Source of the DNA: Cytophagales bacterium
Lineage (GTDB): Bacteria > Bacteroidota > Bacteroidia > Cytophagales > Thermoflexibacteraceae
Reading direction: 5' to 3'
DNA length: 53,756 nucleotides
Assembly (NCBI GenBank): GCA_947457925.1
Contig: CANGYA010000005.1
Coordinates: 1-53,756, forward strand
A model generated the notes under the pieces. The model did not search any database, was not told the DNA's origin, and worked only from the letters and a program-made list of their open reading frames with translations. This document shows positions 1,597 through 20,498 of this stretch, piece by piece. Position 1 is the stretch's first letter; each line of letters opens with the position of its first letter. Made by a program: the position numbers and the translations under genes.

Positions 1597-2847
1597 CTAA
1601 AAAATTAAACCATCTCTTTCGCCTGTGGGTACATGGGCTTTGTACCAATCACAGTCTTTTACATAGGCAGTCCATTGGTTATACAAGGATACATACTCTT
1701 TTTCAGGCAAAAAATCATTTCTAAAAAATGTTGGATAAAAATCATACTGCCTTTGTTCTTTGGGTGTATTTAAGGCATATAATACTCTTTTTACTACGGC
1801 TTTAGGGCTATGATACTTCTCTACATAAGCACGACCTTGAGCTGCTAATTTACAACGCAAATCATAGTTTTCAATAATAGCCTTCAATTCATCATACAAG
1901 TTATGTGGATTTACATCTACAAAGGGGCAATCTTCGGGAACTTTTGCGTACTTTCTGCCTATACTTGTCAATACTACTTTGCCACAAGCCAATCCTTCTC
2001 TATCTTGTGTACCTGCATAGGGGGTAAATAATTGCCCAATTAATATATCTGCTTTGGCGTATTCTTCAAGGGCTTGCTGGTAAGGCATATTTTGTATGAG
2101 CTTAAATTCAAATTCATACCCTTCATTTTTAAGTCTTTCTATAGCTGGTAGTATAAATCTTGTACCTTTGAAATGTGCTGATGAAGGGGCATGTACAATC
2201 ATAGGGTTTTTAGCTCTTTGAGTTGGTTGATGCAAAAAATTATTAGGATTTACAATCGTAAAAACCTGATGATAAGGTCTTAATGCTAATTGAGATTGGT
2301 TAGGGTGGCTAAGAATTATATCAGAATACTTTTCTGCTGTTCTCAAAAAAGATAATTTTTGAGTTAAGTATTTTTCATCAAAGCCATTCATTGAGTCTTT
2401 GCTATACTCTATAGGCAGTAAACCAGCTTGTGAAAAATCTTGCTGCATACTTGTAATCCAACGAATATCGTCTCCAACAAAAAAGGTAATAATCTTTTTG
2501 CCTAATTGCTTTAACCTCGCATAATCTTCATAGTTAGGCTGAAAACTAAACCAAATAAATACAAAAGTATCGCATTGTTTAATGGCTTCGCCCCATACAT
2601 AATCAAATGGGTTGGTACTCTTACCTCGCAAATAATTTAAAGGGTAGAAGGGAAATTGTTTAAAAAAACTTACCTTACTTTTGCCCAGTTCATATAATTT
2701 ATAGTCTATGTTATTGTTATCTACTATACTTCCATTAGGTAGATGCACAGCTGTTATCGTTTCATAGCCATTCTCCTCTAAGCCTAATTTCCAACCTTGC
2801 ATTAGAGAAGCTATGTTGTGCATACCTACAAATACTTTGTTTTTCAT
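1597..2847 (-). CDS. Glycosyltransferase, GT4-like family
   Basis: This 416-aa protein begins KVFVGMHNIASLMQGWKLGL. Its C-terminal half contains an EGLACGKVVLTS-type segment near residues 284-295, preceded by KADILIGQL, as in GT-B glycosyltransferases, where the Glu contacts the donor nucleotide. No membrane helix is seen. It sits second from last in the polysaccharide operon, with 3 nt between its upstream neighbour and its start codon and 6 nt to the next gene, so translation is probably coupled. It likely adds one residue of the repeating unit. The family call is moderate, because the N-terminal half is not one I recognise closely. Confidence 0.75.
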   Translation of the reverse strand: MKNKVFVGMHNIASLMQGWKLGLEENGYETITAVHLPNGSIVDNNNIDYKLYELGKSKVSFFKQFPFYPLNYLRGKSTNPFDYVWGEAIKQCDTFVFIWFSFQPNYEDYARLKQLGKKIITFFVGDDIRWITSMQQDFSQAGLLPIEYSKDSMNGFDEKYLTQKLSFLRTAEKYSDIILSHPNQSQLALRPYHQVFTIVNPNNFLHQPTQRAKNPMIVHAPSSAHFKGTRFILPAIERLKNEGYEFEFKLIQNMPYQQALEEYAKADILIGQLFTPYAGTQDREGLACGKVVLTSIGRKYAKVPEDCPFVDVNPHNLYDELKAIIENYDLRCKLAAQGRAYVEKYHSPKAVVKRVLYALNTPKEQRQYDFYPTFFRNDFLPEKEYVSLYNQWTAYVKDCDWYKAHVPTGERDGLIF

Positions 2848-2850
2848 AAA

Positions 2851-3771
2851 TTAGCTTAATAAATTATTTTTTGAAGGTGTAAAACTTGATGCTGTAACCA
2901 ACAGTAATCCTGAATTACAATTTACTATAAAATCACCATTGGCAAATACCTCTACTATCTGACCAATCTCTGCATAAGGGTAAGTAATTTTAGTATCAAA
3001 AGGCTGAGCTTGCCAAATCATAAGTTTTTCGTTTTCTACAAAAGTAAAAGCCCCTGGATAGGGTTTTGTCAATGCTCTTATAAAGTTGTAAATTTCAAAT
3101 ACTGTTTTCTCCCAATCAATTCTACCGTCTTCTGGCGTACGTTTTGGGTAATAAGTAGGCTCTCCTAATTGTGGATAGGTGATCAATTCACCTTTTAAGA
3201 GTTTAGGAATAAACCGTAGCATTATTTGTTGTGTTATTATAGCATTTTTGTAATAAATGGTTTTACAAGTATCCCACTCATTAATATCAAAAATTTCATA
3301 ATGAAAAACATCACCATCATCTACACCTTCTTTGATAATAAAATAGTGCATAATAAACCGTTTTTTGCCTTCTATCAAAGACCAATTAATAGGAGACCTC
3401 CCTCGCCCTTTAGGTAAAAATTCAGAACTTCCATGCACGCCTATTGCTCCAATAGAAAGAGTTTGTAGAATCTCGTCAGGAAATAGCCTCTGCCAACCAC
3501 CTTGCACCAATAAATCGAATTGATGTTCTTGAAAAAAAGCTATATCTCTTGGGCTTTTCATTGAGTATTTTTCAACATAATAAATAGGAATATTATATTG
3601 ATTTGCCAAATCTGCAAAATCTTTATACCCTGCTACTTGTTGTTCTTGTGCTTTTTCTTTGGTAATTAATACAAAATAAGCAAAGGAGATTCCATTTTCT
3701 AATAAGCCTTTAACGGATTCCCAACCAGCTTCTAAGCACCCACACATGACGATTTTTTTATCATTTACCAT
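2851..3771 (-). CDS. Formyltransferase-family protein (sugar N-formyltransferase-like)
   Basis: This 306-aa protein has a formyl_trans_N-like fold followed by a C-terminal domain with IYNFIRALTKPYPGAF, as in Fmt and ArnA-type enzymes. Enzymes of this family move a formyl group from 10-formyl-tetrahydrofolate to an amino group. The active-site loop reads GVHGSSEFLPKGRGRSP (111-127). His113 and Asp151 match the usual His and Asp, but the conserved Asn two residues before the His is Gly111. A related motif, HGS followed by LPxGRGRSPxNW, seems to define a subfamily found in O-antigen loci, so it may still be active on sugars. It directly follows a deacetylase gene (1-nt gap). It is unlikely to be the housekeeping Fmt, given its place in the operon. 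Confidence 0.75.
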   Translation of the reverse strand: MVNDKKIVMCGCLEAGWESVKGLLENGISFAYFVLITKEKAQEQQVAGYKDFADLANQYNIPIYYVEKYSMKSPRDIAFFQEHQFDLLVQGGWQRLFPDEILQTLSIGAIGVHGSSEFLPKGRGRSPINWSLIEGKKRFIMHYFIIKEGVDDGDVFHYEIFDINEWDTCKTIYYKNAIITQQIMLRFIPKLLKGELITYPQLGEPTYYPKRTPEDGRIDWEKTVFEIYNFIRALTKPYPGAFTFVENEKLMIWQAQPFDTKITYPYAEIGQIVEVFANGDFIVNCNSGLLLVTASSFTPSKNNLLS

Positions 3772-3772
3772 A

Positions 3773-4519
3773 TTACCAATCTATATTTTCACGGTTAGCT
3801 TTAATAAGAGAATTGTTATAGTAGTTTTTGGTTTTTTCAGCCCGTCCATCTATCCATCTATATACTCTTTGTTTAGGCGACATGACTTCGGCTTGCCACC
3901 ACTCATGAGTAAGTATCTGTATGCGTGGGTTGTTTTCTTCTATCACATCTATAATGCGTTTAAAACGCCAATAACCATTCGAGTCTGAACAGTAAGTAAC
4001 ATTTTCTTGAAAGTAATTTGCATACGTATTGACTAAACCGCCATACGTTGCTGCCTTACAGTTCATAGTAAAAGGGGTTGTATTGTGAAAAGAAAAAGCT
4101 TTAATTTCTGTATCAAAAAATTTTTCCAAGATAAATTTCTCAAAAATAATTTTTTCATCTAAACTTTCTTCGTCTTGAATGTTGTAAAAATGTGTATCGA
4201 AGTGCAGCCCCACCTGATGCCCCATGCCAATAATGTCTTTTACTAACTTCGCAACTTCTGCCTCTAACAAGTTGTAAAACTCACTATGTAAGTGTAAAAA
4301 ATAGGTACTTCTTACGCCTTCTTCTGCTTCTATTTCTGCCATTTTTTTGGCAGAATGCACAGAAAAGTCCAAATCATGTCGCCAAAGAGCAAATTTTTCA
4401 TCTTTATCAAAATCAGTAAAAAACCTGAATTGATAACCCATTGCTTTGGCTTTTTGTAAAATTTTGCGGTATTCTTCACGAGTAAAGTCTGCAAAACGAT
4501 ATTTTTCTGCGTTTGTCAT
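3773..4519 (-). CDS. Polysaccharide deacetylase-like protein (NodB/CE4-like)
   Basis: This 248-aa protein has the layout of a NodB-like metal-dependent deacetylase. RHDLDFS at 47-53 provides the Asp residues, STYFLHLHSEFYN follows at 71-83, and GLHFDTHFY at 104-112 could supply a His pair (H106, H110). The family removes N- or O-acetyl groups from sugars. There is no signal peptide, so it would act on a cytoplasmic nucleotide sugar or lipid-linked intermediate. The next gene, 1 nt downstream, encodes a formyltransferase, and a second deacetylase/formyltransferase pair lies just upstream in the operon. The natural inference is that an acetyl group is swapped for a formyl group. Confidence 0.7.
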   Translation of the reverse strand: MTNAEKYRFADFTREEYRKILQKAKAMGYQFRFFTDFDKDEKFALWRHDLDFSVHSAKKMAEIEAEEGVRSTYFLHLHSEFYNLLEAEVAKLVKDIIGMGHQVGLHFDTHFYNIQDEESLDEKIIFEKFILEKFFDTEIKAFSFHNTTPFTMNCKAATYGGLVNTYANYFQENVTYCSDSNGYWRFKRIIDVIEENNPRIQILTHEWWQAEVMSPKQRVYRWIDGRAEKTKNYYNNSLIKANRENIDW

Positions 4520-4525
4520 ACGGTT

Positions 4526-5461
4526 TTATTTTAGTCGTTTTCTAATACTTTTTATAAAAGCAGCAGGTAAATTTCTGTTATTTTGGTACTCTACTTCTTT
4601 CAATATCACTTTGCCTTTCCCTGTAATAACAACTACTTCGCCTGTGTCATTATAAATATGTGCAACTTGTCCTGCAACTGCCAAATAGTTTTCGTCATCT
4701 TCATAAATAGCTGCCCGCCAAATAATCAATTTTTCCCCTTCATACTCACAAAAAGCTCCACTATATGGTTCAGAAGAAGCATTGATAAGTCTTACAACTT
4801 CTTCATTAGATTGTTGCCAATTTATTTTACCATCTTCAGGCAGGCGTGGGTAAGTACGTAGAGCATCTTTAGGGTCTTTGGATTGTACCTCCAGATAATA
4901 CGCTGGATTTTGACTCAACTTCATTACGCTGTTGAGCATCATAGGCGGAATTTCTTTGTTAAGCCATTCCCAAATCTCTCCTATTCGTGTATGAATAGTA
5001 ATATCCAAATATTTTCTGTCAATAATATTACCAGAGTCTAATTCTCCGCCTATCATTTTATGAATACATAAACCCACCTTTTGTTCCTTATTAAGAATTG
5101 CCCAAGCTGCACAAGCATTGCCACGATAGCGAGGTAAATCGCCAAGATGAGCATTGAGAATACCAATCGGAAACAAATCTATCACTTCTTGAGCTATTAC
5201 ACCCGAATAATTAATACTTACAGCAAGAGGAATACTACCTAATGATTTTATTTTCTGTATATTTTCTGTGCTATTTATCTTTGCAGAATGAATAAATACT
5301 GCTCCAATTTTATGGGCTAATGCCTCAAAATCTTGTGCAGTCTTTTTGTATTCAGGAGCCTCTTTAGCCGTAACGATAAGAGGAATCTCATATCCTTGTG
5401 CAAGTAGTAGTTCTGTAACTTCAAATAGAATTTCTGTTCTGCCAATAATGCCTATTTTCAT
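4526..5461 (-). CDS. Formyltransferase-family protein with intact catalytic triad
   Basis: This 311-aa protein contains the loop ILNAHLGDLPRYRG (101-114) and LDSGNI (141-146), so the family's catalytic Asn-His-Asp set is present as N103, H105 and D142. The C-terminal part (ASSEPYSGAFCEYEGEKL) matches the Fmt/ArnA C-terminal domain. It would use 10-formyl-tetrahydrofolate to N-formylate an amino sugar. It overlaps the upstream deacetylase-like gene by 4 nt and is followed 6 nt later by a second deacetylase-like gene. Compared with the paralogue at 2851-3771, it keeps the Asn that the other lacks. A role as initiator-tRNA formyltransferase is unlikely in this context. Confidence 0.8.
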   Translation of the reverse strand: MKIGIIGRTEILFEVTELLLAQGYEIPLIVTAKEAPEYKKTAQDFEALAHKIGAVFIHSAKINSTENIQKIKSLGSIPLAVSINYSGVIAQEVIDLFPIGILNAHLGDLPRYRGNACAAWAILNKEQKVGLCIHKMIGGELDSGNIIDRKYLDITIHTRIGEIWEWLNKEIPPMMLNSVMKLSQNPAYYLEVQSKDPKDALRTYPRLPEDGKINWQQSNEEVVRLINASSEPYSGAFCEYEGEKLIIWRAAIYEDDENYLAVAGQVAHIYNDTGEVVVITGKGKVILKEVEYQNNRNLPAAFIKSIRKRLK

Positions 5462-6168
5462 GCTTTTGTACTAAATTGATAATAAAATTCACTTAATGTA
5501 GTAGTTCTTGTTTGATTTTCTTTTAGGTATTCCAGAATAGTGATTAAGGCATCTCTTACGCCCTTTTTTTGGGTGTTACGATATTCTTTCAAATGCTTAT
5601 AATCATGATAATAAGGTTTAGCTTGCAAGTAAGTAGCCTCACAGTCTGTATTTAAAAAAATATGTATCGGGTGAAAATCAAATATCAATAAGTCATCACT
5701 CAATAAATTTACCCCTAAAGCCCCAAAATCTTTTTCATGCAAATAATGAATATCATCTTCCCAATTATAGGGTATCCGCAAGAGTCCATTCCATAGTGCA
5801 TAGGGTTCAATTTTTTGATAAGGGCAAAAATGGTCGCATTCATATAAAATTGATTTTTGCTTATATAAACTAAGTAGTCTGCTACTTTGTACCAATCCAT
5901 GTGACCGAACCCCTTTAGCTGTTGGATAAATCTCTAATAGCTTATCAATCACTTCATTCGCAGAAACAGTCGACTTTCCTTCTAATAAAGGATTGAAATT
6001 AGGGTGAATTGCAACCTCAAAGATATTTTTATTACAATTTTTGACAACTTCAGAGTCATGTGTGGCAAATAATGTGCATTTTACATTGTATTGCTCAAAA
6101 ATAGCAAAAGTATCTGCTAAAACTTCTTCGGAAGCCCAATCTATATCACAAGTTATGAATATTGGCAT
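5458..6168 (-). CDS. Polysaccharide deacetylase-like protein (WbmS-type)
   Basis: This 236-aa protein begins IFITCDIDWAS, with D8 and D10 in the place of the metal-binding Asp of NodB-like deacetylases. It continues with AIHPNFNPLLEG (53-64) and GVRSHGL, a pattern I associate with the WbmS family of O-antigen deacetylases; that assignment is from memory. No signal peptide or membrane helix is present, so it likely acts on a cytoplasmic sugar intermediate. Its stop overlaps the start of the formyltransferase gene by 4 nt, which points to coupled translation and a joint reaction. The substrate is unknown. Confidence 0.65.
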   Translation of the reverse strand: MPIFITCDIDWASEEVLADTFAIFEQYNVKCTLFATHDSEVVKNCNKNIFEVAIHPNFNPLLEGKSTVSANEVIDKLLEIYPTAKGVRSHGLVQSSRLLSLYKQKSILYECDHFCPYQKIEPYALWNGLLRIPYNWEDDIHYLHEKDFGALGVNLLSDDLLIFDFHPIHIFLNTDCEATYLQAKPYYHDYKHLKEYRNTQKKGVRDALITILEYLKENQTRTTTLSEFYYQFSTKA

Positions 6169-6169
6169 T

Positions 6170-7333
6170 TTAAAAAATTTCGTTAATAGTCAGAAGTTGA
6201 ATGTTAGGTTGATTTAAGGTGCTATTTATCAATTTCTCTTTAATTTGTTTACCAAAAGAATAAGAAAAGATAATTGTTAAGTCAGGAGGATTGCTGATAA
6301 AATCTTCCAAGTTCTCCACGCTTATATCAAAGCAAGGTAGATATTTAGTATATAAGTATTCAGATTCATCAAAAAATCGTAGTTGAATACCTAATCTTTC
6401 TATATCGTCTTTTAAGAGATACAGTAAATTCAAGGCTCTAATTGGCACATAAATACCTATACTTTTTTGTTGGTTTAGCTCAAAGAGTTTTTTGAGTTGT
6501 AATGTTTTCGTTTCAAAAAGTATCTTGAAGTTATTATACAAACTTTCATCAATACTATTTATTGGTTTGCTGGTCGTATTTTGTAATGCTTGAGCTGCAA
6601 TATGTATATTTCCACCAAAAGAAGATTTTTTTGCTTCAACAACAGTATAGCCATTCGTCAGCAGTAAATTGGTCAGGTTTTCTACCGTAAAGTAAGAGTA
6701 ATGCTCGTGAAAAAGCATAGATATATCTCCATTTTTGATATATGTTTCACAGTCGGGAACAGACAGAATAAGCAAACCTTTCTCTGCCACCAACTTAGAT
6801 TTAATGACCGCCAATATACTATTAAGGTCATCGATATGTTCGAGTAGATTATAGGCTATGATTATATCAAACTTTTTATCTTTAACTTCTTCGCTAGGGA
6901 AAAAACCATTGATACAACGAATAGGATATTTGCCTATACGGGCATAACCCGGCTCATAGCCAAGTACCTCTGCACCTTTTTTCTGAAATTCATGTAACAA
7001 ATAGCCTGTTCCACAACCTATTTCTAATACTTTTTTATCTTGAAGTTCGTGTAGGTTTACAAGTATTTCAATAAAACGTATAAAGTCATCTGCATATTTT
7101 TTTCCTATTCCATCGGCATCCATTAAGCCTATTACTTCAGAGCCAATGCTGTATGCTTTTTCTAAACTTTCTACTACTTGTGGGGTAGCTATTTGGCTAA
7201 GTAATCCAAGTTCTTTGTTGTAGTAGAGTTGAAAAGTCAATGCTTTGGGTAGTATGCTTTCATTATATATCTTCTCTGGATACCAATAAAATGGTATATC
7301 ATGTGAAAAAATCAAGTTATCTAAGTTTTCCAT
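6170..7333 (-). CDS. Class I SAM-dependent methyltransferase
   Basis: This 387-aa protein has the SAM-binding motif VLEIGCGTGYLLHEF around residue 100, then IIAYNLLEHIDD and HEHYSYFTVENLTNLL. This order is typical of sugar C- or O-methyltransferases of the Methyltransf_12/23 type. A C-terminal domain of about 130 residues (IGIYVPIRALNLLYLL onward) resembles the C-methyltransferase C-terminal domain. It would methylate a nucleotide sugar or a glycan residue in the cytoplasm. It ends 1 nt before the first deacetylase gene and follows the ATP-grasp gene by 19 nt. The N-terminal zinc motif of the 3-C-methyltransferases is not seen, so the exact reaction is uncertain. Confidence 0.8.
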   Translation of the reverse strand: MENLDNLIFSHDIPFYWYPEKIYNESILPKALTFQLYYNKELGLLSQIATPQVVESLEKAYSIGSEVIGLMDADGIGKKYADDFIRFIEILVNLHELQDKKVLEIGCGTGYLLHEFQKKGAEVLGYEPGYARIGKYPIRCINGFFPSEEVKDKKFDIIIAYNLLEHIDDLNSILAVIKSKLVAEKGLLILSVPDCETYIKNGDISMLFHEHYSYFTVENLTNLLLTNGYTVVEAKKSSFGGNIHIAAQALQNTTSKPINSIDESLYNNFKILFETKTLQLKKLFELNQQKSIGIYVPIRALNLLYLLKDDIERLGIQLRFFDESEYLYTKYLPCFDISVENLEDFISNPPDLTIIFSYSFGKQIKEKLINSTLNQPNIQLLTINEIF

Positions 7334-7352: not shown

Positions 7353-8402
7353 TTAGGTAGTAAAAAATACTTCTTCTTTCAGTCCACGTACTATATGGGC
7401 ATAATTGTAGGGGAAGTTTGGTGTTATTTTTTCGCCCAATACTTCTTTTCTTATAAGCACATCAGGTTCGTTATAGCCAACCATTGCCCTTAGTGAAGTT
7501 GTGCCAGAAAATCTTGGATTGATTTCAAATATATACACTTTGTCATCTACTAATCTGCACTGCAAATTAATAGAATAGTTGGCTTTTAGAGTTTTAGCTA
7601 TCTCACTACATTGTGCAGTTACAGCAGGAAAATGTCCAAATTCGCCTTGTGAAATTCCACTACTAATGACCAAACTATTGCCAAGAGATTGATTAGAAGA
7701 ATAGTTAGGGACTCTTAATCTACAGCTTAGTCCACTACTAATTTGTCTTTTGAGAGCTATTGCATTAATATAGTTGCTATCCTTATCAAAAAGCACACCC
7801 ACCGTATATTCATGTTCAGGTGTTCCCACATATTCTTGAACAATAAACTGTGGGTAAATTTTTAATAAAAAAGAAGCAAATAATTCTAACTCACCTTTGT
7901 TTTGTGCTATCATTACATTCATTGAACCACCACCACCTATAGACGGCTTTAAAACATTAGGGAAATAGTCTATGTTTGCAATGTCCTCTATTTTACTAAT
8001 TGCATGGGATTTTGGAAAATAGAAATTGTTTTTTGCTAAGAAATGAATTGTTTTTGTCTTATCTAAGCAGATATTTAATACATCTTTAGGATTGACAAAA
8101 AGATGTATGCCTTCTTTTCTAAAAACGTCAGCATTATCCGCCAATAGTTGGAGTTCAGCTTCATAACCAGAAAATATAACTTTTATATTATGTTTTCTTG
8201 ATATTTCTAAGATAGTTTCTATATAATTGGGTTGTGTGGCTTTAGGAACAACATAAGCAAAATCTACCTCTTTGAAGCCTTTGCTAATATTGGTAATGTC
8301 TGTACCAATAATAGTATAATTGTAGGCTGATAGGCGTAGGGCTTTGATAAGTTGTTCGCCAACGCCACCACCACCAATGCCAGTTACTAAAACATTTATC
8401 AT
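7353..8402 (-). CDS. ATP-grasp ligase, CarB/PylC-like
   Basis: This 349-aa protein shows an N-terminal Rossmann-like region (VLVTGIGGGGVGEQLIKAL), the glycine-rich ATP loop KPSIGGGGSMNV near residues 150-161, VQEYVGTPEHEYTVGV, and the metal-binding EINPRFSG near residue 293. ATP-grasp enzymes of this type form an acyl-phosphate from a carboxylate and couple it to an amine. In a polysaccharide operon the likely job is to attach an amino acid or other amine to a uronic acid, or to build such a precursor. Start 8402 is a plain ATG, 17 nt after the phosphoesterase gene. The substrate cannot be inferred from sequence alone. Confidence 0.8.
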   Translation of the reverse strand: MINVLVTGIGGGGVGEQLIKALRLSAYNYTIIGTDITNISKGFKEVDFAYVVPKATQPNYIETILEISRKHNIKVIFSGYEAELQLLADNADVFRKEGIHLFVNPKDVLNICLDKTKTIHFLAKNNFYFPKSHAISKIEDIANIDYFPNVLKPSIGGGGSMNVMIAQNKGELELFASFLLKIYPQFIVQEYVGTPEHEYTVGVLFDKDSNYINAIALKRQISSGLSCRLRVPNYSSNQSLGNSLVISSGISQGEFGHFPAVTAQCSEIAKTLKANYSINLQCRLVDDKVYIFEINPRFSGTTSLRAMVGYNEPDVLIRKEVLGEKITPNFPYNYAHIVRGLKEEVFFTT

Positions 8403-8419
8403 ATTTTTAAGTGATTTAC

Positions 8420-9118
8420 TTAGGAGGTTATACTGATTAATTCGCCTACAAAATGTTCCTGTGTTCTATGCAAGCACTCTACAACTTTAACGTGCAAATG
8501 AGTATTATGGATTAGTTGATGGGGTTCAAAAAAGAATCTAAATATATCAAACTTGCAAGTTTCTACATCAAGCACTGCAAAAGCAGCCAAATTACCTATA
8601 TCTCTGGGTAGCCCTAAAGAACCTGTATTCAAAAAAAGTTTATTGTACTCCTTCCTAATGAATGGACGATGCGTATGCCCCATTATAATTACGTCATATT
8701 CTAAATTGGCAAATTCTTCAAGATTTGTGTCAGGGTATAAGTATTGGTTATTATTATTAGGGCTTCCATGTACCAATAAGTATTTTTTGTTATTAGCCTC
8801 AAAAGTAATTTGACTCTCCCAACTTTTTACAAAAGCTAATAACTCTTTAGGTATGCTGTTCTTTATCTGTTCTATTTGATAAACGTCCTCGTTGTCAGCC
8901 ACTTGATTTTGTAACAAGAGGTCTTCATGATTTCCTTTTATACATCTTATTTTTCTTTCTTTCAACAATGCTACCACCTCTATTCCGTAGGGTAAATAAC
9001 CAACAGCATCGCCTATAAAATATATATCTCGAATATTTTGTTGTTCAAAATACTGCAATACTTGTTTAAACGTATCTATATTGCCGTGTATATCACTAAT
9101 GATACCTATTTTACTCAT
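8420..9118 (-). CDS. Metallophosphoesterase, YfcE/MJ0936-like
   Basis: This 232-aa protein has all the blocks of calcineurin-like phosphoesterases: GIISDIHGN near the N-terminus, YFIGDAVGY, CIKGNHEDL, LLVHGSP, IMGHTHRPF and LNTGSLGLPR. These provide the Asp, Asn and His ligands for two metal ions. The YfcE/MJ0936 group hydrolyses phosphodiesters or phosphomonoesters. It is embedded in the polysaccharide operon, overlapping the upstream epimerase gene by 8 nt, so it may dephosphorylate a sugar-phosphate intermediate. A general phosphodiesterase co-transcribed by accident is the alternative. Confidence 0.85.
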   Translation of the reverse strand: MSKIGIISDIHGNIDTFKQVLQYFEQQNIRDIYFIGDAVGYLPYGIEVVALLKERKIRCIKGNHEDLLLQNQVADNEDVYQIEQIKNSIPKELLAFVKSWESQITFEANNKKYLLVHGSPNNNNQYLYPDTNLEEFANLEYDVIIMGHTHRPFIRKEYNKLFLNTGSLGLPRDIGNLAAFAVLDVETCKFDIFRFFFEPHQLIHNTHLHVKVVECLHRTQEHFVGELISITS

Positions 9119-10001: not shown

Positions 10002-10955
10002 TTAGATATTTGCAGCCATCCACTTTGTTGTCTTCAAGATACCTTCCTCCAAATCTACTTTCGCCTTAAAGCCCAATAGATTTTTGGCTTTTTCTACACT
10101 CGGAATCCGAAGTTCTACATCAGCCGATAGTGCATCTTTGAAAATTATCTTGGCATCAGATTTCAAAACTCTTAATACAGTTTCGGCAAGTCCCAAAATA
10201 GTGGTTACTGCTCTCGCATTGCCTATATTGAAGCTTTCGCCAATGGCTTTTGGGTCTGTAAGGGCAAGCATGATACAATCTACAAAGTCATCTACATAGC
10301 ACCAAGCTCGTATTTGGTTGCCATCTCCATTGATGAAAATATCCTCATTTTTTAAGGCTTTTTTGATAAAAATCTGAATAGCTCCTTCGCCTGTTTGCCC
10401 CGGTCCATAGACGTTGAAAGGTCTTACCGTAACCGTAGGCAAATTGTACTTTTTGAAGTAGGCGTGAGCCAAATGCTCCCCTGCCAATTTACTTACAGCA
10501 TACGTCCAACGGGCTTCGCCTGCACTTCCTGATACGGTATTATCTGTTTCTGTAGATTTGAAGGCATACGAACCAAAAATTTCAGAAGTAGAAAAATCAA
10601 TAAATCTATCTTTTACACCATTTACTAAGGCAGCTTCTAAGGCATTGGCAGTACCTATCATATTTACTCGCATCGTTTTTACAGGGTCTTTAATTACTGT
10701 ATCTATGCCTGCGATGCCTGCTGCATGAATCACGATGTCTGCTCCCTGCATAGCTTTTTCCAATGTCGGGTAGTCTAACACATCACCTTTTACTACACTA
10801 ATGTTAGGGTGATTGGCATAGGGCGAATTGCTTAATGTATCTCTATGAAAATTGTCATAGACCACAATTTTGTTGTGAGCCACCACCCTTGAAATAATTG
10901 TGTTGGCTATGAAACCAGCCCCACCTGTGATAAAAATAGTTTTATTGGTAATCAT
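10002..10955 (-). CDS. NAD-dependent epimerase/dehydratase (extended SDR)
   Basis: This 317-aa protein has the dinucleotide-binding motif [13 protein letters not shown] and the catalytic set [11 protein letters not shown] plus [12 protein letters not shown] (YxxxK). It also has [12 protein letters not shown] and [12 protein letters not shown], as in UDP-glucose 4-epimerase and UDP-glucuronate decarboxylase relatives. It would act on a nucleotide sugar. The gene overlaps the aminotransferase gene by 4 nt, so the two likely act in sequence: a keto-sugar produced or handled here can be aminated by the next enzyme. No clear 4,6-dehydratase signature (STDEVYG with DxE) is visible. Confidence 0.82.
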
Positions 10956-12124
10956 AGTTTTGCGTATTGTGTAGTAAGCATATCAATTACATAGTCTTGC
11001 TCCGTTTGTGTCATTGTAGGGTACAAAGGCAGTGCAATCGTCAGTCTATCAGCTATATATGCTTGTGGGAAATCTAAATTTTTGATAGCGTATTTTTGTT
11101 GGTAATACTGTTGCGAAGTTACTGCGTGTGTGCCTTGTCTGGTTATCACACCGTTTTCTTCTAAAGCAAACATCAAATCATTGCGTTTTTTGTGCAATTC
11201 TTCTATGTTAGCTTGTTGTAACTTTTCAGGCTCAAATAGACACACATACGCCTGATACGCATGATTACTATAGGCTGGCGTGTAAGGCAACTTTAGCCAA
11301 TTCAAATCTTTTAATTTTTCGTTATAGTAATCGGCTTTTTCTTTTCGTTTGGTCAGAATAAAATCTGTTTTTTGCATTTGTGTAACCCCTAATGCCCCTT
11401 GTATGTCTGTCATGCGGTAGTTATAGCCCAAATGCTTGTATTCTGCCAACAAAAAAGTATATTTTTGGTCTAATTTCTCAAAGTCCGACATACCGCCACC
11501 ATGATTACGCAAAATACGAATAATCTTATGGTATTCTTCATGCTTAGTCGTTAGCATACCACCTTCGCCTGTGGTAATGGCTTTGCGAGGGTGAAACGAA
11601 AAGCAACCTATATCACCAATGCTACCTACGGGCTGGTTTTTATATTTTGTACCAAAACCACAAGCTGCATCTTCTACTATTCGCAGTTGGTATTTTTGGG
11701 CTAATGCCTTTATCTCGTCCATTTGTGCAGCCAAACCAAACAAATGCACAGGAATAATAGCTTTGGTTTTAGGCGTAACTTTACTTTCTATCTGTGCTAC
11801 ATCAATATTGAATGTTTGTAAGTCAATATCACAAAATATAGGAGTAGCACCACAGTATTCAATAGCATTTGCCGTAGAAATCCATGTAAAAGCTGGTACA
11901 ATGACCTCATCTCCTTCTTGAATACCCAATGCCAACAAAGCCAAATGTAGGGCTGTAGTACACGAAGAAACCGCCGAAGCATAATGACTATCGGAAAAAA
12001 CAGCAAATTGTTTTTCAAATTCTTCTACGTACTTCCCCTGCACCACCCAACCACTTTTAAGAGGTTCTTGGACTATAGAGAAATCGGCTTCGTCAAAAAA
12101 TATTTTAGAGATAGGTATTTTCAT
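10952..12124 (-). CDS. DegT/DnrJ/EryC1/StrS sugar aminotransferase
   Basis: This 390-aa PLP enzyme starts [16 protein letters not shown]. It contains [10 protein letters not shown] and [13 protein letters not shown], which form the PLP pocket, then [11 protein letters not shown], and [15 protein letters not shown] with the PLP lysine at K181. The family transfers an amino group from glutamate to a keto nucleotide sugar, producing 3- or 4-amino sugars. Such amino sugars are what the downstream formyltransferases would modify. The reading frame is open to an ATG at 12175, but that start would extend deep into the ABC-transporter gene. The ATG at 12124 fits the family's N-terminus and gives only a 20-nt overlap. 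Confidence 0.88.
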
Positions 12125-13424
12125 GAAGGTTGAGTTGTTTAGAAGTCCACTTGGATTGGTTGATAATAAAACCATGTGTTGCTGGTATTACATAATCCAT
12201 ACTACCTTTAGAGATATTTGAAACTGTTATATTACCAATCTGTTGCACATAGTCAATGCTTAGTCCTGTTGTGTGATGTATGCCAATAACAAATGAATAG
12301 CTGCCCGGCACTAATCTGTTTTCTAATGTAATATCAAAAGTATATTCTCCTTTTTCTAATGAAAGTTCCTTTATGCCTTCAAAATTAGTAGTAGCATAAG
12401 TAATATAAGTGCCTTCCATAGAAGTCATTTTTACATCAAGTAATGCTGATTTTATAGGCTTAAATATTTCTACGGTTAATCGAAGTTTAATATCTTCTAA
12501 ATAATATACCTCATCAATAGGTTCGTCATTTTGATTAAGGATAGCAAAAGTTTTAAATTTACCTTCTCCTGTGTTATATAAACTCCAATTTTCAGGAATT
12601 TTTTGCTCTTGTAATCTATCTTTTTTCAAATAAGCATCTATTACATTTTGTATATTATCATGCAATTCTAATTGCCCATTTTTTAACAATACACCTTTGT
12701 TACAAAGTTGTTTGATAGAAAGAATATTATGACTCACAAACAACACCGTTCTGCCTTCCCCTTGAGATACATCTTTCATCTTACCGATACACTTCTTTTG
12801 AAAGTCGGCATCACCAACAGCCAAAACTTCATCTACAATCAAAATATCTGGTTCGAGATGGGCAGCTACCGCAAACGCCAAACGGACATACATACCCGAA
12901 CTGTATCGTTTTACAGGGGTGTCCATGAATGCCTCTATACCCGCAAAAGCCACAATCTCGTCTAATTTTGCGGTTATTTCACGGCGGTTCATGCCCAAAA
13001 TAGCTCCGTTCATGTAGATATTCTCTCGTCCCGTCAAATCTGGGTGAAAACCTGTACCTACCTCTAATAAACTGGCTATTCTGCCCTTTATTTTTACTTT
13101 TCCTTTGGTGGGGGTAGTCGTTTTAGACAATATTTTGAGCAAAGTAGATTTGCCTGCACCATTTTTTCCAATGATACCCACTACTTCTCCTCTCTTCACT
13201 TCAAAATTCACGTCTTGTAGTGACCAAACATAACGGCTTTTTACTTCTTCGGCACTTTTTGCAGCAGCCAACTCGTTAGAAGTAGTATAGGTTTCGTAAG
13301 GGTCTGGTAAACCTCGCATTTTGTGCCAAAAACTAACAACGTCTTCTTTAAATGCTTGTCTATCTACATTCCCCAAACGGTAACGTTTATATAAATGTTC
13401 TACTTTTAAAACTACGTCTGACAT
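12105..13424 (-). CDS. Polysaccharide ABC exporter ATPase, Wzt-like
   Basis: This 439-aa ATPase would drive export of a finished glycan across the inner membrane. The Walker A motif GKNGAGKST is at about 86-94, the ABC signature is RYSSGMYVRLAFAVA, and Walker B is DILIVDEVLAVGD. A C-terminal beta-rich domain of about 170 residues (from roughly 270) resembles the Wzt C-terminal domain, which binds the modified glycan end. The TTG 42 nt upstream lies in the promoter region and is rejected as start, because MSDVVLKVEHLYKRY at 13424 is the normal family start. It is the first gene of the operon. Its permease partner (Wzm) is not in this window. Confidence 0.9.
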   Translation of the reverse strand: MSDVVLKVEHLYKRYRLGNVDRQAFKEDVVSFWHKMRGLPDPYETYTTSNELAAAKSAEEVKSRYVWSLQDVNFEVKRGEVVGIIGKNGAGKSTLLKILSKTTTPTKGKVKIKGRIASLLEVGTGFHPDLTGRENIYMNGAILGMNRREITAKLDEIVAFAGIEAFMDTPVKRYSSGMYVRLAFAVAAHLEPDILIVDEVLAVGDADFQKKCIGKMKDVSQGEGRTVLFVSHNILSIKQLCNKGVLLKNGQLELHDNIQNVIDAYLKKDRLQEQKIPENWSLYNTGEGKFKTFAILNQNDEPIDEVYYLEDIKLRLTVEIFKPIKSALLDVKMTSMEGTYITYATTNFEGIKELSLEKGEYTFDITLENRLVPGSYSFVIGIHHTTGLSIDYVQQIGNITVSNISKGSMDYVIPATHGFIINQSKWTSKQLNLHENTYL

Positions 13425-13445
13425 TGTAATACTGTTGAATAAACA

Positions 13446-13476
13446 CAAAGCTATAAACTTTTGCAAAAGTCTTCAA
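13446..13476 (-). promoter_or_regulatory. Promoter of the polysaccharide operon
   Basis: On the minus strand, TTG (13476-13474), a 20-nt spacer and TAGCTTTG (13453-13446) match the Bacteroidota -33/-7 pattern. Transcription would start near 13439, about 15 nt before the ATG at 13424. A 14-bp palindrome fills most of the spacer. Confidence 0.7.
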
Positions 13477-15714: not shown

Positions 15715-18018
15715 TTATAGTTGTAAACCCACCAAAGAAATATCATCTCGTTGTGCTTCTGCTCCTTGATGTTGGTCTAAGGCTGTTTCTAATGCTTGTT
15801 GCTGTGTAGCTAAGGGTAAATGACTGATAGCCAATAGTTTTTCTTGCAATGTTTTCACGCCAAAACGGACTCTTGCTGTATTATTTTGGTCTGCAAAACC
15901 GTCAGTAGCAAAATAAAACACACTGTTAGGGCTTACTTCTGCTTCTTTGTTCTGAAATTCTGTTGAAGGACTTTTACCACTCAAATAAATTCTATCTCCC
16001 CGAATAACGACCAAATTACCATTTTCTACATAATACAATGCCGTTTTTGCACCTGCAAAAACTATTTTGGTGTTAGTGGCTTGTTTTTCAAAATAACAGA
16101 TGCCAATGTCCATTCCGTCTGTATTACGGTCTTCGGCTTGTTTCAAAATTTTTCGCAAAGCCCCTCGCAGATTTCGCAAAATTCTTGCGGGGTCGTCTGT
16201 TACACCTTTTATATTTACTGTTTCGTGTAGTAATGTACTACCCAACATACTCATAAAAGCTCCCGATACACCATGTCCCGTACAGTCTGCTACAGCAAAA
16301 ACGGCTGTCTGCTCTGTAGTTTGAGAAAACCAATAGAAATCCCCAGAAACTACATCTTTGGGACGGTAGATAATAAACAAATCTGCAAAAAAAGCCCTAA
16401 CTTTGATAGTATCTGCCAGCATAATCTCTTGAATATGAGAGGCATAATTGATACTCTGTTTAAGCACGTCAGAGGTAAATTTTAGCTGTTGGTACGTAAA
16501 TTCTACTTCTTGCTTTTGAGATTCAAGATTTGTATTTAAAATAAGGAGTTTTTCTTGTTGTTGGTGCAATTCCTCATTGGCTTGGCTCAGTTCATTGTTT
16601 TTATCTGCAATTTCAAGTTGCTGGCGTTTAATTTCATCATTTTGGCGAGCTAATAAATTATTTGCTTTTTGCTTTTGATAATACCCAATAATGATAAAAA
16701 CTATGATAATGAGAAAGGTTGTCGTAACTCCCAAAAATGTATTGCGGATTTGCGTTTGCTCAACCACTTGTTTTTCTTGCTCCAATTTTAATTTCTCCTC
16801 TTTTGCCCGCAAAAAATCTGCCTCTAATTGTGCTTTTTGGGCTGCTGCATACAAACTATCTGCTTTACGTCTATTTTTTTCGGCTTGTGCTAAGGCTATA
16901 AGGTGTTCGGCTTCGGCTTGTTTTTTCATAATTTCCAACTCTCTCTCTTTCTTCTCGGTGGCTATTTTTGCCAATTCATTGTCTTTAGCTAACAAAGCTA
17001 TTTCTTTTTGATTTCTTTCTAATTCTATGTTTGCGGTGAGTTGAGCTATGGACTTTGATTTTTCAATATTAAACAAACTATCATTGATATTTTTGTACAA
17101 TTCAAAGTAATTCAGGGCATTAGCTGTATTGCCTTGTTGCTTGTTGAGTTCGTAGAGTAGCCACATTGCTTCTTTAGTTTCTATGGGTGTTTTAATACTT
17201 TGGGCTATTTCCAAAGATTTTTCTGCATATTTTATGGCATTTTCGTAGTTATTTTGTTGCTGATAGACTTTTGCCAAGCCTATTAACGAGTAAGTTGCTC
17301 CCCATTTGTCTTTGAGTTCTTCTTTTATATGCAAAGATTTTTGGTAGTAGTTCAGAGCTGTTAGGTAGTCTTTTTTTAATAAATAAATATCACCAATGTT
17401 GTTGTAACAATAGGAAACATTAAGTCTATTTTTGGTTTCTTCATTCACCACTAAGGCATTTTGAAAATACACTAAGGCTTGGTCATAGTTTGCATTAATT
17501 TTGTAAAGTCCACCAATATTTAATAAACTATAACCAATACCTGTTCTGTCTTTAATACTTTCTTTGATTTCCAAAGACTGTTGGTTGTAACGCATCGCCA
17601 AATCATATCTTTTTTGAGTAAGATAGACATTTGCCAAATTGTTGAGGCTGGCAGCCAACGCCATTTTTTCATTTGTTTCCTCCCTCAATTTAATAGCCTG
17701 TTGGTAATAAGATATAGCTTTATCATAATTACCTGCATTGGCATTGAACAAGCCTAAGAAGTGTAAAGATAAACTTTGTGTTTTTTTATTATTAGCTTTT
17801 TCACTGATAGTCAATGCTTTATGTACTAAAGGTAGTAAAGTGTCGGGCTTAGTATTTCTATACTGCTGGGCAATGTTAATCAATAATGTAACTTTTAAAG
17901 AGTCATTGTTCGTTTTATGAAAAGTCATGCACAAGCTATCCAAAATTCGTTTATTTTGGGCTATGGTCATTTGTATAGTACAAATGAAAAAGAGTACGAA
18001 CCATAATTTAGTTTGCAT
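15715..18018 (-). CDS. TPR sensor with SpoIIE-type PP2C phosphatase output
   Basis: This 767-aa protein has a signal peptide (WFVLFFICTIQMTIAQ), about six TPR units (roughly 60-310), a long Glu/Lys/Ala-rich coiled coil (330-425), a single membrane helix (427-448), a second coiled coil, and a C-terminal SpoIIE/RsbU phosphatase domain (550-767). Metal-binding Asp residues are visible in SGDFYW (D560), DCTGHG (D578), ATDGF (D706) and RDDIS (D759). The TPR part should be periplasmic and the phosphatase cytoplasmic, where it would dephosphorylate an STAS-type anti-anti-sigma protein. It lies 7 nt after its paralogue at 18026-20347 and is probably co-transcribed with it. Confidence 0.9.
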   Translation of the reverse strand: MQTKLWFVLFFICTIQMTIAQNKRILDSLCMTFHKTNNDSLKVTLLINIAQQYRNTKPDTLLPLVHKALTISEKANNKKTQSLSLHFLGLFNANAGNYDKAISYYQQAIKLREETNEKMALAASLNNLANVYLTQKRYDLAMRYNQQSLEIKESIKDRTGIGYSLLNIGGLYKINANYDQALVYFQNALVVNEETKNRLNVSYCYNNIGDIYLLKKDYLTALNYYQKSLHIKEELKDKWGATYSLIGLAKVYQQQNNYENAIKYAEKSLEIAQSIKTPIETKEAMWLLYELNKQQGNTANALNYFELYKNINDSLFNIEKSKSIAQLTANIELERNQKEIALLAKDNELAKIATEKKERELEIMKKQAEAEHLIALAQAEKNRRKADSLYAAAQKAQLEADFLRAKEEKLKLEQEKQVVEQTQIRNTFLGVTTTFLIIIVFIIIGYYQKQKANNLLARQNDEIKRQQLEIADKNNELSQANEELHQQQEKLLILNTNLESQKQEVEFTYQQLKFTSDVLKQSINYASHIQEIMLADTIKVRAFFADLFIIYRPKDVVSGDFYWFSQTTEQTAVFAVADCTGHGVSGAFMSMLGSTLLHETVNIKGVTDDPARILRNLRGALRKILKQAEDRNTDGMDIGICYFEKQATNTKIVFAGAKTALYYVENGNLVVIRGDRIYLSGKSPSTEFQNKEAEVSPNSVFYFATDGFADQNNTARVRFGVKTLQEKLLAISHLPLATQQQALETALDQHQGAEAQRDDISLVGLQL

Positions 18019-18025
18019 GAGAATC

Positions 18026-20347
18026 TTAGATAAATAGCCCTACTACTGAAATATCATCACGTTGTGCTTCTGCTCCTTGGTGTGCTTGTAGTCTGCTTTC
18101 CAAAATGCTTTTTTGTTCTGCTAATGGCAAATGGTGGATAGTAAACAGCAAATCTTGTAAAATTTTTGAGCCAAATTTTTGCCTTGCAGCATTGTTTTGG
18201 TCACCAAAACCGTCTGAAGTAAAATAGAAGACACTATTAGGGCTTACAAATGCCTCTTTGTTCTGAAACTCTACCGAAGGGTTTTTACCTCCCAAATAAA
18301 TTCTATCTCCTTGAATAGTCATAAATTGCTGATTCTCTACATAATACATGGCTGTTTTTGCCCCTGCAAAGCTAATTTTAGTGCCTGTTGCTTGCTTTTG
18401 AAAGTAGCAAAGGCTAATGTCCATGCCGTCTGTGTTTCGAGATTCATCTTGTTTTAAGATTTTCCGAAGTGCCGAGTGGAGATTTTTAAGGATACGCGCA
18501 GGTTCATTGCTAATACCCTTTACGTTGATGGTTTCATGCAACAAGGTGCTGCCCAACATACTCATAAAAGCCCCCGGTACGCCATGCCCTGTGCAGTCTG
18601 CCAAAACAAAAATAGCTTCTTGGTCATTGATTTGTGAAAACCAATAGAAATCACCCGAAACCACATCTTTGGGACGGTAGATAATAAACAAGTCGTTAAA
18701 AAATGCTTGCAGCCTTTTAGTATCTGCCAATATAATTCCTTGAATATGAGAGGCATAGGCAATACTTTTGCCCAAAGTGTCAGATGTTTCTTTGAGTTTG
18801 GCGTAAGTTTCCTCAACTTCTCTTTTCTGTGCCTCCAAGTTTTCATTCAGCATGACCAACTCTTCTTGTTGTTGGAATAGCTCCTCATTCACTTGGCTCA
18901 GTTCATTGTTTTTGTGTGCAATTTCGTTTTGTTGTTGTAGAATCTCATCATTCTGTTTTGCCAATAGTTCTTTGGATTTCTTTTCTTTTTGTCTGCTGCG
19001 ATAAATCACAGTTGCAATGACCAACATAAATGCCAAAGCCCCCAAAATTGTGTATGAAAAATAACGTTGCTGTTTTAGTTGTTGTTCATGTTCCAGTTCT
19101 TTCTTTTCTTGTTCTATTTTGCTTTTTTCTTCTTTGTAGGCAAACTCTTTGGAAAGTGCATTTTTGAGATTTTTTTCATTTTCTATGCTGTCTTTCCAAA
19201 AAATATACCTTCTATGACTTTGATAGGCAGCATCATATTTGCCCAATTTTTCGGCAGCAATACTTTTTTCATAGTGAGCTTGCATGGCGTTTTCTGTATT
19301 GCCTATTTTCTCTGAAAGAGCCTGTCCTTTGTCTGCCCACTCGTAGGCTTGCTGAAACTCACCTTTGGCATTGTAATAATGAGCAAACAAGCCCTGAAAT
19401 TGACTAATTTTATCATTTGATTTTGTTTCTTCAATAGCCTTCATGCCTCTTTCTAAATAGGCTAAACTTTTCACAAAATCTTTTTTCTCGTCAATATACA
19501 TCTCGGCTAAAATGGCAGAGGCTACAGCAATATTGTTTTGAAACTTGTTTTTCTCGGCTATTGCTAAACCTTTTTCTGCCTTTTCTATAGCCAAAGCCGT
19601 TTGTTTGAGTTCATACAGACACGAAGCTAAATTGGCTAAGGTAAGGCTTAACCCCTTCAAATCTTTTGCTTTTTCTTTGAGTGTAATAGACTTTTCGTAG
19701 TAGCTTTTTGCTTTTTGGTATTCTCCTTGATTATAGTAAATATTTCCTATGTTGTTGTAATTGATGGACATACCTTTCAGGTCGCCTGCTTTTTCGTCCA
19801 TTTGTAGCCCCAAATAGTAGTTTTCTATGGCTTTTTGGTAATTACCTTGTGTTCTGTAAATTACGCCTTTGTTGGTATAGCAACGGGCTAAGTTCTTTGT
19901 ATCTTTATATTTGAGGGCTAAGTCCAATGCTTTTTGGTGGTAAAACAGTGCCGAATCATAGTTGCCTTTGAGCCGATAGTAAATACCAATACCATTGAAT
20001 ATTTCAGTGAGATTAGACCAGTCAAAACTTTTTTGAGAATATGGCACAGCCTTTCTGAGTCCGTTCAATGTTTCTTCGCCCTCTTTGCCTGTGTTTATAC
20101 GGAAATAACAACGTCCCAGACCTTTTGCATAGTTAGTTTGTAGGGCAATAGCCAATGCTTTTTCTTTGTAGTAGTTGATAGAGTCTTTGGGACAAACGTC
20201 TGCAATTTCTAACAACAACAGTACCTTTGTGGTGTCTGCTTGTGGTTTTTGCAGGTGGCGGTAGAGGCTATCTTTTACATTGCTTTGAGCCAAAGCAATG
20301 TGATGGACTCCACAAAAAAGTGAAAGTAAGAGTAGGACTTTTTTCAT
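18026..20347 (-). CDS. TPR sensor with SpoIIE-type PP2C phosphatase output (tandem paralogue)
   Basis: This 773-aa protein has the same layout as its downstream neighbour: signal peptide (KKVLLLLSLFCGVHHIALAQ), TPR array, membrane helix (YFSYTILGALAFMLVIATVI), coiled coil and SpoIIE domain with SGDFYW, LADCTGHGVPGAF, SDGFGDQ and RDDISVVG. The phosphatase domains of the two proteins are far more alike than their TPR regions, so the sensor parts have diverged after duplication. The frame is open to 20470, but that extension runs through a dispersed repeat and has no signal-peptide character, so the ATG at 20347 is chosen. It is the first gene of the two-gene unit. Confidence 0.9.
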   Translation of the reverse strand: MKKVLLLLSLFCGVHHIALAQSNVKDSLYRHLQKPQADTTKVLLLLEIADVCPKDSINYYKEKALAIALQTNYAKGLGRCYFRINTGKEGEETLNGLRKAVPYSQKSFDWSNLTEIFNGIGIYYRLKGNYDSALFYHQKALDLALKYKDTKNLARCYTNKGVIYRTQGNYQKAIENYYLGLQMDEKAGDLKGMSINYNNIGNIYYNQGEYQKAKSYYEKSITLKEKAKDLKGLSLTLANLASCLYELKQTALAIEKAEKGLAIAEKNKFQNNIAVASAILAEMYIDEKKDFVKSLAYLERGMKAIEETKSNDKISQFQGLFAHYYNAKGEFQQAYEWADKGQALSEKIGNTENAMQAHYEKSIAAEKLGKYDAAYQSHRRYIFWKDSIENEKNLKNALSKEFAYKEEKSKIEQEKKELEHEQQLKQQRYFSYTILGALAFMLVIATVIYRSRQKEKKSKELLAKQNDEILQQQNEIAHKNNELSQVNEELFQQQEELVMLNENLEAQKREVEETYAKLKETSDTLGKSIAYASHIQGIILADTKRLQAFFNDLFIIYRPKDVVSGDFYWFSQINDQEAIFVLADCTGHGVPGAFMSMLGSTLLHETINVKGISNEPARILKNLHSALRKILKQDESRNTDGMDISLCYFQKQATGTKISFAGAKTAMYYVENQQFMTIQGDRIYLGGKNPSVEFQNKEAFVSPNSVFYFTSDGFGDQNNAARQKFGSKILQDLLFTIHHLPLAEQKSILESRLQAHQGAEAQRDDISVVGLFI

Positions 20348-20417
20348 GAGGTATGGTAGGATATAGGTTGTATAAAAATAAGGACTTAAATTCTTATAAG
20401 TAATGGGAAAAAATAAA

Positions 20418-20498
20418 TGTACCACAGACTTTAGTCGGGGACGCCTAGTCTGTAATCTCTTGACAATCAAAGACTCACAGACTAAAGTCTGTGGTACA
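20418..20498. repeat. Dispersed inverted-repeat element, copy B
   Basis: This is the reverse-orientation counterpart of 183-249, sharing at least 100 nt including the flank that reads TTATCAATTAATTAGTTACT. It differs by a 14-nt insertion (20437-20450) flanked by TAGTC direct repeats. Confidence 0.85.

Follow-up and report, generated by a model that had tools for sequence, protein, structure and literature searches.

Two deacetylase families, each associated with its own formyltransferase clade, suggest an N-acyl-exchange module in a polysaccharide operon of a Cytophagales bacterium

The window analysed here is the whole of a 53,756-nucleotide (nt) stretch of DNA from a Cytophagales bacterium of the Thermoflexibacteraceae (assembly GCA_947457925.1, contig CANGYA010000005.1, positions 1 to 53,756), and it constitutes contig C5 of its assembly. 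Between positions 2851 and 6168, the window contained four intact open reading frames (ORFs) with ATG starts, all on the minus strand and in one direction, in which putative deacetylase and formyltransferase genes alternated. In transcription order, genes 1 to 4 are referred to as W, FT1, D and FT2. They were spaced by −4, +6 and +1 nt, and their coordinates and spacing agreed with the initial annotation of the sequence.

5458–6168, minus strand: W (gene 1), WbmS-like polysaccharide deacetylase, 236 amino acids (aa); PF22537, E 7.8e-56
4526–5461, minus strand: FT1 (gene 2), ArnA-like formyltransferase, 311 aa; PF00551 and PF02911; 4-nt overlap with gene 1
3773–4519, minus strand: D (gene 3), divergent NodB/CE4-fold deacetylase by predicted structure, 248 aa
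2851–3771, minus strand: FT2 (gene 4), ArnA-like formyltransferase subtype, 306 aa; PF00551 and PF02911

W matched PF22537 with 189.4 bits against a cut-off of 27, and the W family profile matched the structure of WbmS from Bordetella (PDB 3hft) at E 5e-63. The 3hft signature motifs D-x-D-W, HPNFN, RSH and FHPIH were kept. By sequence, W is a member of the WbmS-like polysaccharide deacetylase family, with a predicted deacetylase activity. WbmS itself (BB0128) is encoded in the O-antigen locus of Bordetella bronchiseptica, and W likewise lies in an O-antigen context. In the window, the gene for W forms a coupled set with FT1, D and FT2. Some Bordetella wbm loci have annotated formyltransferase genes (PMC12243275).

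Gene 3 matched no Pfam family at E 0.1. An AlphaFold2 model of D, built from ten homologs, had a predicted local distance difference test score of 90.4 and a predicted template modelling score of 0.87. All 15 Foldseek matches of this model at E <1e-3 were CE4/NodB deacetylases, and re-alignment gave Z scores of 13.0 with PplD (a Streptococcus pyogenes deacetylase), 10.7 with WbmS (3hft) and 10.3 with ArnD. Judged by the predicted model, D is a structural relative of the CE4/NodB deacetylases rather than a Pfam-defined member. With regard to the canonical Asp-His-His metal site of CE4 enzymes, Asp49, Asp51, His106, His145 and His205 were conserved in the D homologs, and the second His of motif 2 (position 110) varied. 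The W and D families have the D-x-D first motif in common; hhalign gave a probability of 1% for W versus D, with no similarity detectable at the profile level, in line with the earlier remark that the two deacetylases are not simple copies. D-type genes adjoined hexapeptide, LpxD-like and HisF/HisH amidotransferase-type genes.

Pfam identified Formyl_trans_N and Formyl_trans_C domains in both FT1 (E 1e-13 and 4e-14) and FT2 (E 5e-13 and 1e-18), and ArnA was the closest solved structure for both. In an alignment, the Asn103-His105-Asp142 triad was intact in FT1 and 13 orthologs. In FT2, the catalytic Asn was replaced by Gly111; Gly111, His113 and Asp151 were invariant across four aligned orthologs, and three of the four aligned sequences had GSSEFLP or GSVEFLP in the Gly111 region. 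The loss of Asn was rejected as a defect peculiar to FT2, since GxH is a common subtype, found in 22 of the 59 scorable formyltransferases of the WbmS loci described below. As far as the alignments indicate, GxH-type formyltransferases are probably functional. The activity of FT2 is nevertheless less certain than that of FT1, because the Asn of the catalytic triad is missing, and a second formylation is the weaker claim.

A function as methionyl-tRNA formyltransferase was rejected: the two proteins reached 104 and 117 bits against an Fmt cut-off of 201.5, and FT1 and FT2 were placed apart from the Fmt-like clade in a phylogenetic tree. A phage or viral origin was rejected as well, as a scan of viral contigs with FT1 yielded no relative and the lone match in a phage collection grouped with the Fmt-like clade. 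The scaffold MT835834.1, deposited as 'Bacteriophage sp.', may itself be of bacterial origin; the formyltransferase that it encodes is bacterial and Fmt-like.

Species-representative genomes searched with a profile built from six W proteins yielded 79 loci from many phyla. W was recognised in 73 of these, and a formyltransferase was also present in 40. The formyltransferase was at most one gene from W in 28 of the 40 loci (9.5 expected) and at most two genes away in 38 (17.3 expected); when formyltransferase positions were shuffled 5000 times within each locus, neither count was reached in any shuffle. D was found in just 20 of 395 genomes of the phylum, yet in 17 of the 79 W loci (approximately 16 kb each). 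Where W had no formyltransferase, hexapeptide acyltransferases made up 18 of 93 neighbouring genes versus 7 of 93 distal ones (p 0.015), which is expected if W readies an amine for re-acylation. In a plasmid search, W matched Lawsonia alone, with no formyltransferase annotated next to it.

Because the loci had mostly been found via W, reverse searches were performed with FT1 and FT2 profiles. Among 370 genomes of the order, the FT1 profile had three matches, each lying one or two genes downstream of W, and the FT2 profile had four, each directly preceded by D. The cassette was absent from the 12 genus and family mates listed in these profile searches of order genomes. The FT1 clade comprised 27 members (support 99/99); W was located directly before 22 of these, and one gene lay between in the other five. 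Eight of 21 adjacent W-FT1 pairs had a 4-nt overlap of the ATGA type. The FT2 clade had five members (support 100/99). Conservation of the pairing had been set as a test beforehand, and the pairing was found for W with FT1 in 12 phyla, of which one is archaeal, and for D with FT2 in five of five FT2 orthologs, D being the gene immediately before FT2 each time. A marine thaumarchaeote single-cell genome (L108:8001-9769) contained a W-FT1 pair; the cassette therefore extends to archaea. A third formyltransferase group, of the GxH type, was located directly upstream of WbmS (L056:7225-8001, L058:7198-8001, L110:7171-7944 and L081:6342-7124, from Ignavibacteria, Arcobacter and others), so that some loci contain FT-W-FT1 sandwiches.

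The gene order of the window was also sought in other genomes, as the initial annotation had proposed. Contiguous W-FT1-D genes of the window type occurred in Roseivirga (L066), Lentisphaeraceae (L087), Ignavibacteria (L058) and Dorea (L109). Roseivirga echinicomitans had the full set, methyltransferase-W-FT1-D-FT2, in an order identical to that of the window. Its first two junctions, a 4-nt overlap and a 6-nt gap, matched those of the window, and its methyltransferase, in the same position upstream of W, shared 31% identity with the window homolog. Both pairs were present in one locus in an uncultured Microscilla (L083; D-FT2 plus W-x-FT1 within approximately 9 kb) and in an alphaproteobacterial metagenome-assembled genome (L070; W-x-FT1 plus D-FT2 within approximately 8 kb). 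Genome G491 encoded D-FT2-glycosyltransferase with no W within 20 kb; this glycosyltransferase shared 37% identity over 420 aa with the window gene at 1597–2847. Roseivirga (L066:5409-6821) and Microscilla (L083:8716-10116) shared genes for a flavin adenine dinucleotide-dependent oxidoreductase-like protein, a FemAB/GNAT-like protein and a small methyltransferase beside W, which were absent from the window operon.

In the D tree, D genes accompanying W-FT1, including those of the window and Roseivirga, formed one clade (10 rows, support 98/95), and D genes preceding FT2 in Microscilla, the alphaproteobacterium and G491 formed another (three rows, 99/95). FT2 thus draws its partner from either of two D clades, and the coupling of FT2 to D therefore outlasts exchange of the D gene. 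The alternation of deacetylase and formyltransferase genes held up at the level of families and of the fold of D. The view of the four genes as two tandem copies of one pair did not: tandem duplication was rejected, given that W and D had no profile similarity and FT1 and FT2 fell into separate supported clades. By the trees, the four genes are assembled modules, and a W-FT1-D module to which FT2 has been added describes the arrangement better.

The four genes were part of a co-directional polysaccharide operon consisting of a Wzt-type ATP-binding cassette (ABC) ATPase, an aminotransferase, two short-chain dehydrogenase/reductase (SDR) enzymes, a metallophosphoesterase, an ATP-grasp ligase, a methyltransferase, the four genes and two glycosyltransferases.

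12105–13466, minus strand: ATPase of a Wzt-type ABC exporter (O-antigen export), with a Wzt_C domain; PF00005 and PF14524
10952–12175, minus strand: DegT/PseC-like nucleotide-sugar aminotransferase, amino sugar source; PF01041, E 2e-115
10002–10955, minus strand: NAD-dependent SDR nucleotide-sugar dehydratase/epimerase, upstream pathway; PF01370 and PF16363; E 9e-139 to PDB 8vr2
6170–7333, minus strand: S-adenosylmethionine methyltransferase, directly upstream of W; PF13489, E 1e-22
1597–2847, minus strand: glycosyltransferase, directly downstream of FT2; weak match to PF13524
316–1590, minus strand: second glycosyltransferase of the operon; PF13439, E 1e-7

The aminotransferase scored 333.8 bits with the PseC model TIGR03588, under the cut-off of 423.5. 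At their first possible starts, the aminotransferase and ABC ATPase ORFs shared 71 nt (12105–12175); the true start of the aminotransferase is probably a later ATG. The operon may extend past the contig start, as the window is the contig itself. Its GC content was 0.35 versus 0.37 in the remainder of the window, with no clear signal of recent transfer. The metallophosphoesterase and ATP-grasp ligase genes were adjacent (7353–9118), and the same adjacency was observed on an Azospirillum plasmid (L053:5452-7484), where a D-type deacetylase and also an aminotransferase are encoded nearby. Elsewhere in the window, two neighbouring proteins (15715–20470) each combined tetratricopeptide repeats with a SpoIIE phosphatase domain.

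We hypothesize that the four translationally coupled genes would form an N-acyl-exchange module in an operon for an ABC-exported polysaccharide of the O-antigen type. W would hydrolyse an acetamido sugar at its N-acetyl group, leaving an amine for FT1 to formylate with N10-formyltetrahydrofolate as the donor. D and FT2 would perform a second deacylation and acylation, at another amino position or on another sugar of the same glycan. We infer the substrates, the acetyl-off/formyl-on direction, the order of action and the activity of FT2 as an N-formyltransferase despite its Asn-to-Gly replacement. With these included, we assign the explanation as a whole a probability of roughly 0.55.

Several points weigh against it. 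Within the flanks fetched, 33 of the 73 loci with W had no formyltransferase, and the acyltransferase enrichment beside W, at the p value of 0.015, was modest. All aligned FT2 orthologs lacked the Asn of the Asn-His-Asp triad. Proteins of the CE4 fold include N-deacetylases, O-deacetylases, deformylases (ArnD) and pseudoenzymes. A Paracoccus plasmid carried a formyltransferase of the FT1 clade with aminotransferases and without W nearby, and the aminotransferase of the window operon already supplies an amine that needs no deacetylation. For the source organism, the exchange is a prediction from genes.

The aminotransferases bear on an alternative in which the enzymes act independently. The formyltransferases would then act on amines that the PseC-like aminotransferase produces, W and D would trim other groups, such as N- or O-acetyls at different sites of the glycan, and the genes would co-occur only by decorating the same terminal sugar. 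This is consistent with the Paracoccus plasmid and with the dehydratase-aminotransferase pair, which many W loci have in common with the operon. However, independent action predicts neither a single formyltransferase clade directly after W in 12 phyla nor D directly before every FT2, and we consider it unlikely, though to be taken seriously. About as doubtful, or slightly more so, is a restricted version in which only W-FT1(-D) performs N-formyl exchange and FT2 is a divergent enzyme of the formyltransferase fold with another or a low activity, without a second formylation. The Gly in all FT2 orthologs examined would fit, as would the grouping of the window D with W-FT1-D cassettes that have no FT2. 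Retention of the His and Asp, the intact C-terminal domain, conservation of the subtype at 50–60% identity and the frequency of GxH-type formyltransferases in such loci argue for a working FT2 instead.

The ArnA/ArnD system of the polymyxin-resistance aminoarabinose pathway resembles the window in having a formyltransferase and a NodB-fold hydrolase in one pathway: FT1 and FT2 were closest to the formyltransferase domain of ArnA, and ArnD and D both have the NodB fold. It differs from the window, where two distinct deacetylases were tightly coupled to two distinct formyltransferases. Transient formylation after this example, with an amino sugar nucleotide formylated to drive transfer and later deformylated by W or D to leave a free amine, would predict the same gene pairing and agrees with the ArnA and ArnD matches, but is improbable: ArnD fitted the D model no better than many other CE4 folds did, FT1 and FT2 carried formyltransferase domains only and not the fused dehydrogenase of ArnA, no operon gene exceeded the ArnB cut-off (aminotransferase, 285.8 bits versus 631), and deformylation leaves the frequent W genes without a formyltransferase beside other acyltransferases unexplained.

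N-formyl sugars are present in bacterial and archaeal glycans. The sugar N-formyltransferases WlaRD, VioF, PseJ and those of the QdtF type have the Formyl_trans_N fold of FT1 and FT2, and FT1 keeps the Asn-His-Asp triad. To our knowledge, these characterised enzymes use amines made by aminotransferases and have no paired deacetylase. A natural example of an N-formyl group where the precursor bears N-acetyl is the 5-N-formyl-legionaminic acid of Halorubrum sp. PV6: the formyl group is on a nitrogen that begins as the acetamido group of GlcNAc, and the locus contains a putative formyltransferase gene (PMC6137143). That study neither proposed nor mentioned a deacetylase step (PMC6137143), and the gene content of the Halorubrum pathway differs from that of the window. 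In the literature searched, which mostly excluded subscription papers, we found neither a published activity for any WbmS-family member nor any account of a unit that joins WbmS or D to a formyltransferase; the absence of such descriptions is unproven.

The components are thus of known kinds, and the best explanation of the paired cassette is a variant of N-formyl sugar biosynthesis, with its N-formyl role inferred. On a broader and more tentative view, N-acyl exchange on surface sugars may be widespread and modular. Each of the two NodB-fold deacetylase families, WbmS and D, would be linked genetically to a formyltransferase clade of its own, and by combining one or two such modules a lineage would place N-formyl at selected amino positions that carry N-acetyl at first. 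Conserved in about 12 phyla, the deacetylase-formyltransferase cassette offers a concrete candidate. It gives WbmS a testable role, and gene 3 defines an unnamed deacetylase family that Pfam misses.

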